Assembly: GCF_014200755.1 (NCBI RefSeq)
Contig: NZ_JACHCM010000001.1
Location: 414,218 to 478,217, forward strand
Length of the DNA stretch: 64,000 nt
From: Rhodanobacter sp. ANJX3
Lineage (GTDB): Bacteria; Pseudomonadota; Gammaproteobacteria; Xanthomonadales; Rhodanobacteraceae
Direction: 5' to 3'
Part shown: positions 29,849-38,183 of the stretch, piece by piece
Position numbering within the stretch: position 1 is the stretch's first letter
Layout of the letters: the number at the start of each line of letters is the position of its first letter
Position numbers and translations under genes: made by a program
Notes under the pieces: model-generated
Seen by the model: the letters and a program-made list of their open reading frames with translations, nothing else
What the model was told of the DNA's origin: nothing
Databases searched by the model: none

Positions 29849-30185
29849 TCCGGCCAACGGCTCCTAAAGGTCGGTTTCTCCTCGATGTTGAGTGCAGATA
29901 TCGCATCAGCGTTTGCCGCGCCCATGTTGCCTGTCCATGAGTGACCGTCTCTAGGCGGATCGATTGACTCTTCGGGGGGCGATCAGCGGCTGTAGTGAAC
30001 AACCGAGTCCTCTCGGGAAGTGTTAGCCGCCGGATGTTGCACGAACGGCGCCATCACCCTCGAAAGTCACATCAGCCCGCGCCGGTCAAGATTCAGCCCC
30101 CAGAGTTATACCCTCATGAGCTCGGTCCGCTATCCCCTCAATGCATGCCCATCGCGCGAGGGCTAAAAATATTGCAATCTTCAGG
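29849..30185. other. Intergenic stretch before the hip locus
   Basis: About 340 bp with no supported gene. It is the probable left boundary of the accessory island, but no integrase, tRNA or direct repeat is visible. Confidence 0.45.
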
Positions 30186-30208
30186 CTACATATTTCGTCA
30201 ATATGTAG
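30186..30208. promoter_or_regulatory. Perfect palindrome, probable HipB operator
   Basis: Arms CTACATATT (30186-30194) and AATATGTAG (30200-30208) are exact reverse complements with a 5-nt spacer, ending 14 nt before the hipB ATG. Position and symmetry fit an autoregulatory operator. Confidence 0.75.
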
Positions 30209-30222
30209 TTCGAAGGTTACAA

Positions 30223-30558
30223 ATGCCTACACCACATAACCCTCCCGCCGCTGTGCGGCGCGTCCTGCGCAAGCACGGTGCAGACATCAACGATGCCCGT
30301 CGGCGGCGGCGGCTGCCAATGGCTATCGTCGCAGAACGTGCCTTCACATCCCGCTCGACCCTGCAAAAAGTCGAGGCTGGGAACACCAATGTCAGCATCG
30401 GCATTTATGCTAGCGTCCTTCAGGCGCTCAGCCTGCTCGACGGTTTGGGCCAGATCGCCGACTTCGGCAACGACCCGGTTGGCCAAGCGCTGGCCAGCGC
30501 GGAACTGCCCAAGCACGCGCATCTCAAGCGAACAGCCGGATCATCTCGCGATGGCTGA
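30223..30558 (+). CDS. hipB: HipB-like HTH antitoxin / transcriptional repressor
   Basis: 111 aa from the ATG at 30223. A Cro/CI-type helix-turn-helix is clear (MAIVAERAFTSRSTLQKVEA then GNTNVSIGIYASVL, about residues 33-66). It directly precedes and overlaps a hipA frame, the classical hipBA order. HipB neutralises HipA kinase and represses the operon. Here HipA is destroyed, so HipB would be an orphan repressor acting on the palindrome just upstream. Confidence 0.82.
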   Translation: MPTPHNPPAAVRRVLRKHGADINDARRRRRLPMAIVAERAFTSRSTLQKVEAGNTNVSIGIYASVLQALSLLDGLGQIADFGNDPVGQALASAELPKHAHLKRTAGSSRDG

Positions 30559-31685
30559 CTTCGAGGTACATATCGACCTGAACGGCCGCACGCGCCCTAT
30601 CGGCCTGGCGAGGAGCAATCGCGTTCGAGGCACGGAAACTATCCTCTTCGAATATGATGGCGCGTGGCTCGCCGATCCAGACCGGTTCTCACTTGAGCCT
30701 GCCCTTGCCCTGACCCGCGGTTCCTTCGCCCCTCCGCCCGGACGGGTGACCTTCGGCTCCGTATGAGACTCAGCGCCCGACACATAGGGGCGCCGTCTTA
30801 TGCAAAGGGCGCCGTCTTGCCGAACGCGAAGGCCGCGCTGTTCGCACCCTTGCGGAAAGCGATTACCTGCTCGGCGTCGCCGACGAGACCCGCCTGGGTG
30901 CCCTCAGATTCCGCTGGGCAGGCGAAGAAACGTTCCAAGCGCCTATCCGCGTCGGCGTCCCAGCCCTGATCGAACTCGGGCGGCTGCTCCAGATCACCGA
31001 TCCATCGCCAAGTTTCCGAAGGAGACCGACGACTACAGCATAGAAACATGGGAAGAGATCGCACTGCGGCTGGCCGAGCAGTCCGGTATTACCACGCCGC
31101 ACCATGAGCTGATCGAAGTCGCAAGCAAGGCTGTGATGCTGTCCCGACGCTTCGATCGTTCCGGCTCGATCCGCGATCCGCATTCCTTTCCTGTCAGCGA
31201 TGGCGATGATGCATGCCAAGGACGGTGAGCGCGGCAGCTATCCGGAGATCGTCGACGCTCTTACGCAACATGGCGCGCAGGGGAAGACCGACGCTCATGC
31301 CCTCTATCGGCGGATCGTCTTTAACGTGCTAATTTCCAATGTCGACGACCACCTGCGCAACCATGGCTTCCTTTGGCTCGGCAAGACGGGGTGGTCTCTT
31401 TCTCCCGCCTATGACCTCAATCCTGCGCCCACCGACCTCAAGGTACGCGTGCTGACGACGAACATCGACCTCGACGAGGGCACCTGCTCGCTTGACCTGC
31501 TTGAGTCGGCTTCGGAGTTCTTCGGCCTCACACTGCCGCAGGCACGCACAATCATCAAAGAGGTCGCGACCGTGACCGCGACGTGGCGTGCAACCGCCAA
31601 GGCCGCCGGTGCGCGCTCCGCCGAAATTGACCGGATGGCCAGCGCCTTCAAGCAAGATGATCTAAAACGGGCGTTAGCGCTATGA
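30551..31685 (+). pseudogene. hipA: hipA toxin kinase pseudogene
   Basis: The ATG at 30551 overlaps the hipB stop. The N-terminus (FEVHIDLNGRTRPIGLA to FAPPPGRVTFGS) is followed by TGA at 30764 (GGA in relatives) and TAG (TGG) within DSAPDTWGRR. A frameshift follows near 30800, then LAESDYLLGVADETRLGALR-like sequence to about 31000. There it joins SIAKFPKETDDYS directly, skipping roughly 40-50 codons that normally hold the nucleotide-binding loop. A further frameshift at about 31190 precedes MAMMHAKDGERGSYPEI. The catalytic SNVDDHLRNHGF survives. Two stops, two or more shifts and a deletion mean no kinase is made. Confidence 0.88.
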
Positions 31686-31933: not shown

Positions 31934-33346
31934 GTGCAACAAGAAAATATCGTGCAAAAAATATGGAACTTATGCCACATCCTTCGGGGTGATGGGGTGA
32001 GCTATCATGAATATATATCCGAGCTTACGTACCTCTTATTCCTTAGAATAGCCGCCGAGAACGAGACTGAAAAGCTTATCCCTGATGGATATCGCTGGGA
32101 TGATATCGTGGGATACACCGGCGGCGATCTTCTTACACATTATCGAGACGTCCTGACGTTCCTCGGAGGGCATGCAAATGACGATCGGGTCCGAAAGATC
32201 TACGCTTTCCCGACGACGGTGTTCTCCCATAGTGAGAACCTCCGAGCAGTTATAGACGGAATCGACAGGCTCGATTGGGGCTCCATCTCAACAGACGCGA
32301 TGGGTGGCATTTACGAAGGTCTCATTGCGAAAAATTCACAGGATGCGCGCTCGGGAGCCGGGCAGTACTTCACGCCTCGAGCACTCATCGATTCTATCGT
32401 TCGCCTAGTCCAGCCGAGGGGTGGCGAACTGATCCAAGATCCAGCCGCAGGCAGTGGCGGCTTTCTCGTATCTGCCAACGACTTCGTTCTCGGACGAACA
32501 CAATCGAAAACTGCTAAGCGAAGCTTGCCTCGTTTCGAGGGGATGGAAATTGAGAAGGGCACCTACCGAATTTGTCTAATGAACGCATTTTTGCACGGGT
32601 TGGATCTACGGCTTATCCTGGGTGATGCGCTCACCGTCGACTCTGCGAATTTGACGGATCCGGACGTCATCTTAGCCAACCCTCCGTTCGGCGCTCGTGC
32701 TGGTGGTGCCCGTCGGCAGCGGCGCGACATTCCCTTTCCTACTGCCAACAAGCAACTCGCGTTTCTCCAGCACATCTATCTTGCTCTGAAACCTGGTGGC
32801 CGGGCTGCGGTGGTGCTGCCGGACAACGTGCTGTTTGAAGATGGTGTAGGGAGAAAGGTTCGTCAGGACATCCTCGAGAAATGCAATCTGCATACCATCA
32901 TTAGGCTTCCGACGGGCATCTTCTACGCCCAGGGAGTGATGACCAACGTGTTATTTTTTTCTCGGGGCGAAAAGCCTCGGGGAAATACCAAGGAAACATG
33001 GATCTACGACATGCGCACGGGCATGCCAGCGTTTGGTAAGAAGCAACCGCTCGCAACGGCACACTTCGAAGAGTTTGAGGCTTGTTTCGGTCCCGATCCG
33101 CTCGGGACAAGTCCTCGTCAGGACCTCGGCGAGCAGGGTCGTTTCCGGCGCTTCACGCGTAAACAAATCGCGGCGCGCAATGAGAACCTCGATATCGATT
33201 GGCTACGCGCAGATCAGGACAACGCTGGCACGAATGCGGAGCCCGAAGAGCTCGCTGCCCGGATTTCACAGCTCCTTCGCGCCGCCATCGAACAGATTGA
33301 CCTGCTAAGCGATGAGCTGAGCGCAGAAGGAAATGATGCGCGATGA
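31934..33346 (+). CDS. hsdM: Type I restriction-modification DNA methyltransferase subunit
   Basis: 470 aa with GTG start (MQQENIVQKIWNLC). N-terminal helical HsdM domain about 1-125. SAM motif I is DPAAGSGGF (169-177) and catalytic motif IV is NPPF (249-252), defining an N6-adenine methyltransferase. QYFTPRALIDSIV is the family's conserved lead-in. It modifies host DNA at the site chosen by HsdS. The stop overlaps hsdS by 4 nt. Base composition is visibly lower in GC than in flanking housekeeping genes, suggesting transfer. Confidence 0.95.
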   Translation: MQQENIVQKIWNLCHILRGDGVSYHEYISELTYLLFLRIAAENETEKLIPDGYRWDDIVGYTGGDLLTHYRDVLTFLGGHANDDRVRKIYAFPTTVFSHSENLRAVIDGIDRLDWGSISTDAMGGIYEGLIAKNSQDARSGAGQYFTPRALIDSIVRLVQPRGGELIQDPAAGSGGFLVSANDFVLGRTQSKTAKRSLPRFEGMEIEKGTYRICLMNAFLHGLDLRLILGDALTVDSANLTDPDVILANPPFGARAGGARRQRRDIPFPTANKQLAFLQHIYLALKPGGRAAVVLPDNVLFEDGVGRKVRQDILEKCNLHTIIRLPTGIFYAQGVMTNVLFFSRGEKPRGNTKETWIYDMRTGMPAFGKKQPLATAHFEEFEACFGPDPLGTSPRQDLGEQGRFRRFTRKQIAARNENLDIDWLRADQDNAGTNAEPEELAARISQLLRAAIEQIDLLSDELSAEGNDAR

Positions 33347-34908
33347 CGTCGCTGCCGCAACATTGGGTTACTGTTCCCATCGGCGACATTTGTGACCTCG
33401 TGAATGGGCGCGCGTTCAAGCCTTCAGAGTGGTCGGAAACGGGCCACCCAATCGTCCGGATTCAAAATCTCAATAGACCGACGGCCTCATTCAATCATTT
33501 CGAAGGGCCGATCGATGACCGCTTTGCCGTCGATGACGGAGACCTGCTGTTTGCATGGTCAGGTACCCCGGGCACATCGTTCGGAGCGCACTTGTGGGAA
33601 GGCGGCCCCGCCGTATTGAACCAGCACATTTACCGAGTAGACTTCGACCGAGAGCTTATAGACCCTGTATTTTTCAAGTTTGCAATCAATGAAACTCTCG
33701 ACGAGCTCATCGGCCAAGCCCACGGCGGCGTCGGACTTCGGCACGTCACCAAAGGTACGTTTCAGAAGACGAGGATCAGCCTTCCTCCCACCAATGAACA
33801 GCGCCGCATCGCTGCAGCGATTGCAGCTTACAGCGATAGGATCGACGTAACCTACGCTGGCGTTCAAACCGCGCTTTCCGCGAGCGAGGAATACAAAGAA
33901 GCCGTTCTAAGAAAAGCGTTCGAGGAGAACCCCGGCTACAAGGGGAAACGCCCGGACTACCTGCCCCTAGTCGAATTGGTTGATGAAGGACCCGCGAACG
34001 GCTGGTCTCCAAAAACTGGCCCGGATGCCACCGGCCCGCTAGCACTACGACTTACCGCAACGACATCAGGATACCTGCGGCTCGACGAGGCTGCGGTGAA
34101 GCGCGTTTACGAGCGACCGCAAGACGATTCGAAGTATTGGCTGAAGTCAGGCGATCTGCTGGTTCAGCGAGCTAATGCGCTTGAGCATCTTGGTGCGACG
34201 GCAATTTTCGACGGGCCTGAGAAGACCTACATCTATCCTGATTTGATGATGCGTTTACGGGTGGGCGACGAGAGTCGGCGTCGCTATCTATGGCGCTATC
34301 TGAATTCCGCTAACGCCCGCCGCTATCTTCGCGAACATGCCACCGGCACTGCGGGGAATATGCCGAAGATAAGCGGTGCGACCCTTAGAGGCTTGCCAAT
34401 CCCCATTCCTCCAGGCGGAAATTTCCTCGAAGCCGCAGATTTTATTGATCGTGAATTCGCAACGATTGAGATTATGCGGCAAACAGCAGCCGACACACTG
34501 GAGACACTACGGCATCTTCAAAAGGCAATATTGAGCAGGGCATTTCGTGGCGAACTGGTGCAGCCTGCACCGAGCGACGAACCCGCGGACCTTCTCTTTG
34601 AGCGGATAAAGCGAACCAAGAACGCTCAACCTCCCCGCCGACGTCAACGCATTGTGCAGCCGAAGCGCAAAACGCACACTATCAAAAGAGGAGCCCTCAT
34701 GTCGCAAAAGAGGAGAGCCGACGTCACGTCTGACTATCTCAAATTGACGCTAGTGGACATGGGAGGGATCGCTTCTGCCAAGGAGCTTTGGCGGAGAAGC
34801 GAGATGATCATCGATGAATTCTACAAGCAACTTCGGCAGGAAATAGACCGGGGCGACGTAGCGATCGGCAGCACCAATGACGAACTGGTGGTCCGACATG
34901 CGGCTTGA
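33343..34908 (+). CDS. hsdS: Type I restriction-modification specificity subunit with C-terminal extension
   Basis: 521 aa. Two target-recognition domains (about 1-150 and 205-385) are each followed by a conserved helix: EEYKEAVLRKAFEENPG and ETLRHLQKAILSRAFRGELV. After the usual end (near 430) comes a basic linker (RRRQRIVQPKRKTHTIKRG) and an extra domain of about 70 residues (SDYLKLTLVDMGGIASAKEL then DEFYKQLRQEIDRG), probably a small winged-helix-like module. It overlaps hsdM by 4 nt and the downstream ATPase by 11 nt. The extension may link the recognition subunit to the ATPase/nuclease partners. Confidence 0.92.
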   Translation: MTSLPQHWVTVPIGDICDLVNGRAFKPSEWSETGHPIVRIQNLNRPTASFNHFEGPIDDRFAVDDGDLLFAWSGTPGTSFGAHLWEGGPAVLNQHIYRVDFDRELIDPVFFKFAINETLDELIGQAHGGVGLRHVTKGTFQKTRISLPPTNEQRRIAAAIAAYSDRIDVTYAGVQTALSASEEYKEAVLRKAFEENPGYKGKRPDYLPLVELVDEGPANGWSPKTGPDATGPLALRLTATTSGYLRLDEAAVKRVYERPQDDSKYWLKSGDLLVQRANALEHLGATAIFDGPEKTYIYPDLMMRLRVGDESRRRYLWRYLNSANARRYLREHATGTAGNMPKISGATLRGLPIPIPPGGNFLEAADFIDREFATIEIMRQTAADTLETLRHLQKAILSRAFRGELVQPAPSDEPADLLFERIKRTKNAQPPRRRQRIVQPKRKTHTIKRGALMSQKRRADVTSDYLKLTLVDMGGIASAKELWRRSEMIIDEFYKQLRQEIDRGDVAIGSTNDELVVRHAA

Positions 34909-36475
34909 TTGGTTAAAGATCGGTCAGTTCAAGAATCTCGTTGATGTCCAAATCGACTTCGACGAAGGCGAGCTTTCCACCGTACTTGTTGGGGAGAACG
35001 GAACCGGAAAATCGAACGTGATCGAGGCATTAGTCACCATTTTTCGTGACTTGGATTTTGGGGAGCAAACATCCTTTTCCTACGCTATTGCGTATAACTG
35101 TCATGGGCATCGGATCGAAATTGAGAACTCGGCTGAGGATGGCGCGTTTTCCGTGAAAGTTGACGGTAAGGCGAAAACCCGATCCGCGTTCAATGCTCAC
35201 AGATCTACTTATCTACCAGCCAACATCTTTGGTTACTATTCGGGCTCTAGTAGGCGATTGGAGCAGTTGTTCGATAGACACCAGCTTCGATATTATAAAA
35301 GGGTGATCTCTCCCGGTTCTTCGGCGGCAGACATTCAGAATCTAGATCTTCGCCGACTGTTCTATTGTCGACCGGCCTATGGCCAGTTAGCACTATTGAG
35401 CTACTTCGCTTTCGGATCCGACTCCGCAAAAACGTTTCTGAAAAAGCATATGGGCATCACTGGTTTTGACAGCGCCCTTCTCGTCCTCAGGAAGCCCCGC
35501 TGGGCTGATGGCCGCTCTTCGGCAGCCAATGTAAAGGCAAGCGATCAAACGTTCTGGAACTCGTCAGGGCTGGTTCGAACGCTCCTCGACAAGCTGTGGA
35601 ATCAAGCATTAGCGCCGATCGCCGACCGCGCTCGGGAGCAAGACGACTACCGTGCAAAACCCACCAATGAAGAGCAAGTATATATATTTTTGAAAGACTT
35701 GGCTGCGCTGAACGATATAGCGCGTTCATTTGAAGACGAGCGAACATTTTTCGCACTCCTTGAATCACTCGACATTTCCGACTTGATTCGTGAGGTGCGC
35801 ATCTGGGTCGATAAGGATGACATTGAAGGGGAAATTCCCTTTCACGAAATCAGCGACGGTGAAAAGCAGCTTCTGAGTGTGCTTGGCCTGATGCGCTTCA
35901 CGAGTCAAGATGAAAGTCTCTTCCTACTAGATGAGCCGGACACTCATCTGAATCCAAATTGGAAATGGGACTATTTGCATTTAGTGAAGGACGTGGCGCA
36001 ACGCGGCGAGAGCCACATCATCCTCACCACTCATGACCCTTTGACAATCGGAAGCCTCAAAGCGTCTCAAGTCCAGGTGATGGCACGATCTAAGGATGGC
36101 AGTGTCTCTATAAGGCCGCCAGAGGTTGATCCCCGTGGACTTGGTTTCACTAGCATCCTGACACAGATATTCGGTCTTCCTACCACCCTTGACCCAGATA
36201 CTCAGCAAGAACTCGACGAGCGCAACCAGCTCCTGCGAGTGGATCCACGCAACACTCTCCAGGAACATAGACTGCTGGAATTAACCGAGCGGCTTAGGAG
36301 ACTAGGTTTCGTTCTCGAAGACCGAGAGCCAGAGTACGAGTTGTTCCTGCGCGCTCTCACAGACCTCAAGCATGAAGGGCGGAAGGCACTATCGCCGGAA
36401 ACGATCGCACAACGTAATCATGTAGCGAAACTGCTGCTGACCGAGATCATGGCCCCTAAGGGCGATCGCCCATGA
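34898..36475 (+). CDS. ABC/SMC-type AAA ATPase (PtuA-like) of the hsd operon
   Basis: 525 aa from the ATG at 34898 inside the end of hsdS. Walker A GENGTGKS (32-39) sits after a RecF-like start (LKIGQFKNLVDVQIDF). The ABC signature is ISDGEKQ near 318, Walker B LFLLDEPDTHLNP near 342-354, and the switch histidine is in LTTHDP near 377. No TOPRIM or REase motif follows, so it is not an OLD nuclease. Such ATPases partner HNH nucleases in Septu (PtuAB) and retron Ec78 defence systems. The next gene, overlapping by 4 nt, is an HNH protein. Confidence 0.88.
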   Translation: MRLDWLKIGQFKNLVDVQIDFDEGELSTVLVGENGTGKSNVIEALVTIFRDLDFGEQTSFSYAIAYNCHGHRIEIENSAEDGAFSVKVDGKAKTRSAFNAHRSTYLPANIFGYYSGSSRRLEQLFDRHQLRYYKRVISPGSSAADIQNLDLRRLFYCRPAYGQLALLSYFAFGSDSAKTFLKKHMGITGFDSALLVLRKPRWADGRSSAANVKASDQTFWNSSGLVRTLLDKLWNQALAPIADRAREQDDYRAKPTNEEQVYIFLKDLAALNDIARSFEDERTFFALLESLDISDLIREVRIWVDKDDIEGEIPFHEISDGEKQLLSVLGLMRFTSQDESLFLLDEPDTHLNPNWKWDYLHLVKDVAQRGESHIILTTHDPLTIGSLKASQVQVMARSKDGSVSIRPPEVDPRGLGFTSILTQIFGLPTTLDPDTQQELDERNQLLRVDPRNTLQEHRLLELTERLRRLGFVLEDREPEYELFLRALTDLKHEGRKALSPETIAQRNHVAKLLLTEIMAPKGDRP

Positions 36476-37317
36476 TCTACGTCTTTCAAGATGAAACGAA
36501 AATCCCGGCAGCTTGGCTGGCAAAAGTTGCTGCCCTGCAGATAGCTCTTGATCAGCTCGATACGAAGGCCAAGAGAAAGGCCTACATTGACAGTAAGATG
36601 GGAATTTGGGGAGAGGTTAAAGACCTTCTTCTTCAAATGTCTCACAACAAATGTTGGTATTCTGAGGCTCCGGATGCCGTTTCGGATTGGCACGTCGATC
36701 ACTTTCGGCCGAAACTAAGAGCCTTGGATGAAGATAGAACCGCCCACGATGGTTATCCGTGGCTGGCTTTCGACTGGAAGAACTACCGGATCGCCGGCAG
36801 CTATCCAAACTCGCCGCACACTGATGGCCAAGGCGCTACAAGAGGAAAATGGGATTACTTCCCATTATCGAATGGCTCGGTAAGAGCAACCTGGGACCAG
36901 AGAAGTACGGCAAGCGAAACGGTCCTTCTCCTCGATCCAGCCAGTAAGACGGATCCGAAGTTGATGACATTCGACGAGGAGGGTGTGCCAATCCCTGTCG
37001 ATCCGGCCAATGCCATTGTGAAGAAGCGGGTCGAGACAACAGTACATTTTCTTTATCTGGACAGTCCTCGTTTGGTGTCTGCTAGAAAAAAGAAATGGCG
37101 AGAAATTTCCGATTTGATCGAGGAGTACCGCCTTGCATGTCCTGATACATATGAAGCTTGTACGCTCCAGGATCATCAACGAGTAGAGCGGTTGATAGAA
37201 AAGTTGAGCGCTGCCGCCGGTCCAAAAGCCGCTTACGCGGCAACAGCTCGCGCCTGTCTTCGCGCGAACGGCCTTGCTCTCTTCATTGAGGCGGTCGAAG
37301 AAGCAGCCGCCGCCTAA
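36472..37317 (+). CDS. HNH endonuclease (PtuB-like) of the hsd operon
   Basis: 281 aa, ATGA-coupled to the ATPase gene. The nuclease core is NKCWYSEAP (59-67) and WHVDHFRPK (73-81), with the later NYRIAGSYPNSP supplying the N half, followed by GKWDYFPL. DHFRPK is the hallmark of PtuB/TIGR02646-type HNH proteins. The usual CxxC zinc knuckle partner is Cys-Trp-Tyr-Ser here, a variant. Probably the DNA- or RNA-cleaving effector, gated by the ATPase. The stop codon lies directly against the end of an IS3 element, so anything that followed in the operon has been displaced. Confidence 0.85.
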   Translation: MIYVFQDETKIPAAWLAKVAALQIALDQLDTKAKRKAYIDSKMGIWGEVKDLLLQMSHNKCWYSEAPDAVSDWHVDHFRPKLRALDEDRTAHDGYPWLAFDWKNYRIAGSYPNSPHTDGQGATRGKWDYFPLSNGSVRATWDQRSTASETVLLLDPASKTDPKLMTFDEEGVPIPVDPANAIVKKRVETTVHFLYLDSPRLVSARKKKWREISDLIEEYRLACPDTYEACTLQDHQRVERLIEKLSAAAGPKAAYAATARACLRANGLALFIEAVEEAAAA

Positions 37318-37322
37318 GGGTT

Positions 37323-38183
37323 CTACCCCGAAATCACGGACGGTTGTGAAAGGGTGGAAAACTTCAATTCCTGCCTGGCGGTCCTTCGCCGCATTCTTGG
37401 GTTATGGAAGCGCTCGATGTATTCGAACACATCCGCTCTTGGGGTATCGAGTGTTGGATAGGTCATGCGATAAATCCGTTCGCGCTGGAGCAGGCCGAAG
37501 AAGCCCTCGCAAGCAGCGTTATCGCCGCAGTGGCCAACCGCGCTCATCGAGCACACCAGCGCGTTGGCCAGCAATTACTTCCGATAATCACCGCTTCTGA
37601 ACTGACTACTTCTATCCGAATGCAGGATCACCGGTTCGTTGTGTTGTCGCTGCCATACAGCCGTCTGTACGGCCCGGATCACCATCTGCCGATCTTGCCG
37701 ATGGTGCATCGACCAACCCACCACCCGATGGTCGAACAGGTCCAAGACGACGCATAGATAAAGCTTGCCTTCCCCGGTTTTAATCTCGGTGATGTCCGTG
37801 ACCCATTTGGTTTCCGGCTCCAGTGCGGTGAAGTCCCGTTCCAGCCGGTTGCGTACGCCTAGCGGTGTGAGTGCCGGCCGTGCTCGCATCCGCTGACGCT
37901 TCGGGCGCGGCCAACCCTGCAAGCCATCAGCGGCCATCAACCGAGCCACGCGGTTCAGGCCGACCCGCTGACCTTCATCGGCTAGGTCTTCCTGCATCCG
38001 GCCGGCACCCAGCGTGCCTCGGCTGTCTTCGTGCAGCTCACGCATACGCCTCAGCAAACGTACATTGTCGAGCTGGCCGGCGCTAGGCAGACGCCGGCTC
38101 CAGTCGTAATAACCGCTGGCCGATACCCGCAGGCAACGGCACATCAGGCGGATCGGGAACTCATCGCGGTAACGTTCGATCAC
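37323..38183 (-). pseudogene. IS3 transposase OrfB (DDE integrase), interrupted
   Basis: The frame runs [20 protein letters not shown] through [20 protein letters not shown] (first catalytic Asp) and [17 protein letters not shown] (second Asp), then meets TAA at 37575. The same frame continues LLANALVCSMSAVGHCGDN to ACEGFFG (catalytic Glu) and FEYIERFHNPRM, ending at 37323. CAA to TAA explains the stop. DRGSQ has also become DRSSQ. Full-length product is not made. Confidence 0.88.

Follow-up and report, generated by a model that had tools for sequence, protein, structure and literature searches.

A Rhodanobacter type I methyltransferase operon without hsdR carries a Septu-like PtuA-PtuB pair and may be a self-contained defence unit

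It has been reported that the toxicity of the effector pair PtuA-PtuB (PtuAB) is restrained by a partner in retron Eco7, and that tRNA-Tyr is cleaved both by Eco7 and by Septu EcB88 (PMC11555353, PMC13096335). Septu EcB88, described as ptuA and ptuB alone, cuts the variable loop of tRNA-Tyr, for which both active sites are required (PMC13096335). PrrC resides within a type IC operon, whose complex keeps it silent until Stp sets it free, and Ocr binds and blocks the methyltransferase (MTase) core (PMC2610378, PMC3874165, PMC12707154). Pairs of an ABC-ATPase and a nuclease next to restriction-modification (R-M) genes have been described before (PMC12839542, citing Krishnan 2020), and modification modules decoupled from restriction modules are known from Dnd systems (PMC10853773). 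In the accessible part of their article, the PADLOC authors noted Septu pairs that occur with a reverse transcriptase (RT) but none with hsd genes (PMC8565338), and in the open-licence literature (titles and abstract openings) no report of HsdMS with PtuAB was found among the matches listed. Here we describe such a combination, the gene set hsdM-hsdS-ptuA-ptuB (M-S-A-B), in a 64,000 nt stretch of Rhodanobacter sp. ANJX3 DNA (GCF_014200755.1, NZ_JACHCM010000001.1, positions 414,218-478,217, forward strand), which will be referred to as the window.

The first-pass annotation of the window had placed hsdM, hsdS, an ATPase gene and an HNH nuclease gene in a row with overlaps of 4, 11 and 4 nt, and this arrangement held up: all four frames are open (Table 1). 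As start of ptuA the ATG at 34898 was taken, which aligns with the starts of eight relatives; the longest open reading frame (ORF) begins at 34877. In the Pfam scan HsdM matched HsdM_N and N6_Mtase, HsdS matched Methylase_S in two stretches and PtuA matched AAA_21/AAA_15, whereas the HNH protein matched no family. The PADLOC models gave MTase_I (5e-182), Specificity_I (3e-59), PtuA (3e-190) and PtuB (2e-89). The motifs DPAAGSG, NPPF, GENGTGKS, SDGE, LFLLDEP, CWYSE and DHFRPK are present, and the pattern F.G.G gave no match. The NCBIfam scores were below the cut-offs for HsdM (TIGR00497, 84 bits vs 243) and for PtuA with the model of a restriction system-associated AAA ATPase (TIGR04435, 143 bits vs 300), and the matches to the Ec78 PtuA and PtuB models likewise stayed below theirs. 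The annotated resemblance of the ATPase and the HNH protein to PtuA and PtuB was substantiated by PADLOC and by searching the PDB with profiles of the two families, which recovered PtuA/PtuB of Septu and of type I-A retrons. It was also substantiated by the structure model of PtuB (mean predicted local distance difference test, pLDDT, 93.6): the ten PDB chains closest to it in fold all come from PtuA-PtuB complexes of Septu or retron I-A (TM-score 0.44-0.53 by query length; nine with E of 0.001 or less). The HsdS model (521 aa, mean pLDDT 84.6) has type I S subunits as its best fold matches.

No HsdR was found in the window, in agreement with the first-pass annotation, and the search was extended to the whole genome. 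Neither HSDR_N nor EcoEI_R_C is matched anywhere in the assembly (4.65 Mb in 23 contigs, completeness 100), and a search with the HsdR of a relative, run without a positive control of its own, found no match either. The HSDR_N search was positive in 8/8 other genomes and recovered the hsdRs linked to relatives at two loci of G015 and in the L053 and L056 genomes; it is therefore able to see HsdR of the relatives' kind. When 36 HsdRs were compared with the window by tblastn for a relic of the gene, nothing was found below E = 0.009, and the match with that value is distant from hsdM; run in the same way with the other HsdRs, the search did pick up the hsdR of L062. As judged from the assembly, hsdR is missing from the whole genome and not merely from the window. 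One could suppose that an HsdR encoded at a separate locus acts in trans, and HSDR_N matches do occur elsewhere in the genomes of a Comamonas relative (one match) and a Providencia relative (two). However, an HsdR of the HSDR_N type is excluded in the window genome and in the genomes G966 and G709 of two close relatives, neither of which gave an HSDR_N match; this leaves room for an HsdR of a new family, and even so we regard supply in trans as extremely improbable.

Relatives of the locus were collected through HsdM as well as through PtuA. The HsdM tree has 50 rows, ordinary type I systems having been added, and excludes the family of 590-aa HsdMs (L044, L058-L060, L063, L064, L067, L068, L072, L073, L079, L195) as well as L046, L069, L074, L076, L240, L243 and L245. 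In this tree the window falls into a six-member clade with a support of 100/99 (93/99 in an earlier tree), together with loci of Comamonas composti (L066), G966 (L196), G709 (L197), a Pseudoalteromonas plasmid (L039) and Providencia rettgeri (L088). All six members are without hsdR, and all six have PtuAB. In the phylum there were 29 HsdM matches in 28/398 genomes, and 23 neighbourhoods were viewed. Three of these, those of the window, G966 and G709, have PtuAB and lack hsdR. The other 20, viewed out of 26 matches outside the clade, have hsdR in 16 cases and none in two (L236, L240), two lie at contig ends, and PtuB occurs in 0/20. Seven plasmid loci outside the clade gave hsdR in 7/7 and PtuB in 0/7 (7 of 2761 plasmid records viewed). 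Among 50 HsdM loci on viral contigs, hsdR is missing with both flanks present in one only, L300, which bears PtuAB, and three others have PtuAB together with hsdR; these four PtuAB cases amount to about three because L293 and L294 appear to be almost duplicates. Over the HsdM-driven loci the association between absence of hsdR and presence of PtuAB gave a Fisher p of 0.0098 (49 loci without the window), a crude value as the loci are related; for the viral loci alone p was 0.14, and an independent-pairs test on the HsdM tree gave a median p of 0.25, with too few pairs.

The scan with a PtuA profile, using one genome per species, returned at least 80 loci, and plasmid and order loci were added. 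Genes were called by profile searches of ORFs, and all four genes reached 70 bits or more in 36 loci (L082 and L086 were under 70 bits for ptuB). The set used for counting comprises the 32 loci in which hsdM is not truncated by a contig end, without the contig-edge loci L068, L071 and L076 and without the divergent hsdR-less L083, whose inclusion would change the ratio of hsdR-bearing to hsdR-less loci to 23 vs 10. A class-wide PDLC00293 search proved too broad, with 333/369 genomes positive and few true members by score. In the set of 32, hsdR is present in 23 loci, always at the head of the set and in the same orientation (23/23), and absent in nine (L037-L040, L057, L061, L066, L067 and L088). 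The four genes occur side by side in widely different bacteria, in the two recurring orders (R)-M-S-A-B and (R)-S-A-B-M, R standing for hsdR, and the tight spacing is kept in both.

The PtuA tree, built on 36 chosen rows, places the window together with three loci that bear hsdR (support 100/99). These nearest relatives by PtuA (L043, L053, L054) carry hsdR upstream, not behind the HNH gene, whereas the nearest relatives by HsdM are without it. By itself the PtuA tree had pointed to a recent loss of hsdR in the window; the hsdR-less clade of the HsdM trees led us to revise this conclusion. The idea of the first-pass annotation that hsdR disappeared upon arrival of an insertion sequence (IS) was rejected, because the IS3 remnant lies downstream of the operon and hsdR is the first gene in the relatives; nor was a relic of the gene found. 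Since hsdR is kept in 23/32 loci and the hsdR-less ones are scattered over the PtuA tree, PtuAB appears also to work, or to ride, beside complete type I systems. Such complete R-M-S-A-B operons fit equally well with a guard arrangement, in which HsdMS, with or without HsdR, would silence PtuAB, and a phage anti-restriction protein binding the MTase core, e.g. Ocr, would free it and so stop the infection. PrrC guards EcoprrI likewise, and as Ocr blocks the MTase core, HsdR would not be needed (PMC2610378, PMC3874165, PMC12707154). Alone, however, a guard explains neither the stable hsdR-less HsdM clade nor the divergence of recognition domains within hsdR-less systems (see below), and we consider it quite possible, if on balance doubtful.

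At its C-terminal end the HsdS model contains a low-confidence linker followed by a folded domain (Table 1), hereafter called the tail. The fold of the tail gave partial matches (55 to ~100 columns) to winged-helix proteins, AspA and ArsR-type repressors among them (E 0.02 and up), which agree with the tail in topology and length. Comparison of the tail with PDB sequences yielded mostly designed-repeat matches, which were taken as artefacts. The tail was detected in 28/33 complete PtuAB loci, the window included. A tail profile run against 398 genomes (203 with Methylase_S matches) gave matches in 29 genomes at 0.01 and four strong matches (E of 1e-10 or less). Of these, one is the window, two are loci next to ptuA, and the fourth is G963, where hsdR-hsdM-hsdS is found but PtuAB is not; when the tail was sought in 30 Methylase_S loci, none had it (0/30). 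In the HsdM-driven viral survey it was present in 4/4 PtuAB loci vs 0/41 others with HsdS in view, five further loci showing no HsdS. On these profile searches, the tail seems to occur almost only in PtuAB-linked HsdS.

In a Chthoniobacteraceae assembly (L110, 8558-11617), HsdS and a PtuA-like ATPase are fused into one protein of 1019 aa behind hsdR-hsdM. It could be argued that the type I methyltransferase is an orphan and the Septu pair a second, independent defence that merely shares its operon. An R-M system with the same tail but without PtuAB does exist (L195), PtuAs move between hsdR-bearing and hsdR-less systems, and PtuBs have been exchanged between loci (30-35% identity beside 74-82% for PtuA). 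Against such independence stand the HsdS tail, the HsdS-PtuA fusion and the tight spacing in two gene orders, which make it improbable in our view. In a group of more distant loci, a nuclease domain (HSDR_N_2) is fused to a type I methyltransferase, and a distant PtuA-like ATPase follows; the fusion was checked in L080 (7146-9998) and L093 (6370-8631), and L087, L091, L095, L096, L105 and L115 look similar. These loci are mostly from Bacteroidota and have no separate hsdR in the operon.

Natural copies of the hsdR-less arrangement exist in E. coli. A blastn search with the ptuA-ptuB stretch of Providencia, which would miss more distant copies, matched 9/5426 complete E. coli genomes, and in 6 the match covered 80% or more of the query. 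All nine loci are M-S-A-B without hsdR within the stretch viewed, and they lie at two chromosomal sites, next to ygbA/hyp in six genomes and next to dinD/yicG in three. HsdM was compared in four loci and shares 85-87% identity with the L088 protein. Between the E. coli loci L254 and L256, PtuB appears swapped wholesale (34% identity), HsdM and PtuA being 87.5% and 74% identical. Nonsynonymous and synonymous substitution rates (dN/dS) between the hsdR-less loci L254 and L088 were 0.071/0.973 for hsdM, 0.105/1.176 for ptuA and 0.072/0.982 for ptuB, and between the hsdR-less L256 and L257 they were 0.059/0.706 for ptuA and 0.027/0.433 for ptuB, with the reservation that dS near 1 approaches saturation. 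In five hsdR-less HsdS proteins the mean pairwise identity by block was ~0.38-0.50 in the first recognition domain and 0.18-0.27 in the second, and 0.71 and 0.78 in the two main tail blocks (0.42 in the last short block). By these comparisons, HsdM, PtuA and PtuB of hsdR-less loci are under purifying selection, and the recognition domains of HsdS are diverging. Diverging recognition domains combined with conserved main tail blocks would be expected if both the choice of site and the contact with PtuA mattered.

These data also bear on whether the locus is a decayed type I system in which hsdR was lost and the Septu genes were kept by chance. HipA fragments upstream and the IS3-family remnant downstream indicate a disturbed region, the nearest PtuA relatives carry hsdR, and one clade member, L196, has a split ptuA. 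On the other hand, the four window genes are open and have their motifs, no relic of hsdR was found, the hsdR-less HsdM clade has six members, and purifying selection is seen between hsdR-less loci. The window set is thus probably not just a decayed copy, and chance retention appears very unlikely. As these genes have been retained together in relatives, some E. coli among them, the set looks like a real, self-contained unit of virus defence.

Taken together, we favour, with a probability of about 0.45, the explanation that M-S-A-B is a self-contained hsdR-free defence unit in which HsdMS docks and restrains PtuAB, which is licensed on unmodified sites. The first-pass annotation had likewise proposed HsdMS with PtuAB as an alternative effector; the recurrence of hsdR-less M-S-A-B which this predicts was found, as an HsdM lineage and in E. 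coli, and the proposed model is thereby supported in part. HsdM and HsdS would form a type I methyltransferase marking a host-specific sequence, and PtuA and PtuB an ATPase-HNH effector which, as in type I-A retrons, would need restraint until required. The putative winged-helix tail of HsdS may dock PtuA; if so, the methyltransferase would fill the role that RT and its multicopy single-stranded DNA (RT-msDNA) have in retron Ec78, and PtuAB would replace HsdR. Restraint of PtuAB by HsdMS through the tail is suggested by the literature on Septu EcB88, PrrC and Ocr. When HsdMS meets unmodified target sites of incoming DNA, PtuAB might be licensed to cut; its release could also be possible when HsdMS is inhibited. 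The divergence of recognition domains in the absence of a linked HsdR favours a site-dependent trigger, i.e. unmodified DNA, with the guard-type trigger close behind. The substrate may be DNA, for which one Septu provides a reported example, or a tRNA, the reported target of Septu EcB88 and retron Eco7. In its most specific form, an HsdR-free restriction logic in which the methyltransferase judges self and non-self and a tail-docked PtuAB is the dedicated effector, perhaps cutting tRNA and not DNA, the proposal is tentative and rather unlikely to hold in every part.

Several observations weigh against the self-contained unit. In the PtuA tree the scattered hsdR-less loci require seven changes, at least five of which are forced by well-supported branches, and hsdR is retained in 23 of the 32 complete PtuA-found relatives. 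Two clade members (L066 and L088) are those with HSDR_N matches elsewhere in the genome (see above), and the split ptuA of L196 is also inside the clade. The dS values come close to saturation. No tail was detectable in five PtuAB loci (L041, L042, L072, L075, L078). Conversely, L195 (11677-18843) has hsdR-hsdM-(349-aa ORF)-hsdS with the tail and without ptuAB, which means that the tail is not strictly dependent on PtuAB; its neighbours resemble genes that we take to be dnaN and gyrB. Finally, the fusion in L110 is one metagenome-assembled case, without the tail and without a recognised ptuB.

The features of the operon are collected in Table 1. Just upstream of hsdM (29995-31685) fragments of HipA occupy two frames, accompanied by a weak match to a HipB-like helix-turn-helix, and just downstream of ptuB (37575-38183) is the IS3-family transposase remnant; by eye the element may extend to ~38500.

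Table 1. Features of the hsdM-hsdS-ptuA-ptuB operon in window coordinates (H, helix; E, strand; TRD, target recognition domain)
Feature	Position	Strand	Description
hsdM	31934..33346	+	type I N6-adenine methyltransferase; GTG start; DPAAGSG and NPPF motifs; Pfam, PADLOC
hsdS	33343..34908	+	specificity subunit, two TRDs; 4-nt overlap with hsdM; Pfam, PADLOC, fold
HsdS basic linker, low confidence	34639..34725	+	aa 433-461, pLDDT under 50
HsdS tail, putative winged helix	34735..34899	+	aa 465-519, H-E-H-H-E-E; no Pfam family above cut-off
ptuA	34898..36475	+	ABC/SMC-type ATPase, Walker A residue K38; 11-nt overlap with hsdS; Pfam, PADLOC
ptuB	36472..37317	+	HNH nuclease, CWYSE and DHFRPK, HNH residue H77; 4-nt overlap with ptuA; PADLOC, model

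If the proposed mechanism is true, the type I methyltransferase would be a general sensor of self and non-self that accepts different killers, as retrons do with RT-msDNA, and some of the orphan hsdMS pairs might be accounted for in this way. How an hsd complex holds an ABC-ATPase effector, a question that dates from PrrC, becomes testable, the HsdS tail being the candidate contact and the hsdR-less E. coli loci, for example that of the environmental strain OW1E2, providing natural copies.

In a comparison with the closest known systems, HsdM and HsdS are type I R-M proteins by Pfam and PADLOC, and HsdS also by fold, but no HsdR was found in the window genome. As in Septu type I, ptuA and ptuB form a pair (see above for the PADLOC values), which here is not free but fixed behind hsdS with its dedicated tail. 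Retrons of type I-A (Ec78/Eco7, Septu type II) also have PtuA/PtuB effectors beside a nucleic-acid-binding partner, and the PtuB model matches their complexes; the partner is RT-msDNA there and HsdMS here, and scans of eight window proteins turned up no RT, msr-msd not having been searched for. With EcoprrI-PrrC, for which gene order only was compared, the locus shares an ABC-ATPase effector inside the hsd operon, but PrrC is one protein with its own anticodon nuclease (ACNase) domain in a complete R-M system, whereas here there are two proteins, an HNH nuclease and no hsdR. Relatives of the MTase, S subunit and ATPase of MADS were recognised (PADLOC mad2 7e-58, mad5 3e-23, mad3 3e-18), but with scores far below the NCBIfam cut-offs (MAD2 87.7/720, MAD3 31/420 and MAD5 47.5/400 bits). 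The ABC-ATPase RM-like systems (TIGR04435) resemble the locus in having an ABC ATPase and a nuclease beside R-M genes (PMC12839542), and are set apart by the TIGR04435 score (see above). The kind of system is thus already known from PrrC, retron I-A and the ABC-ATPase RM-like systems; what is new is the hsdR-free lineage and the candidate contact domain.

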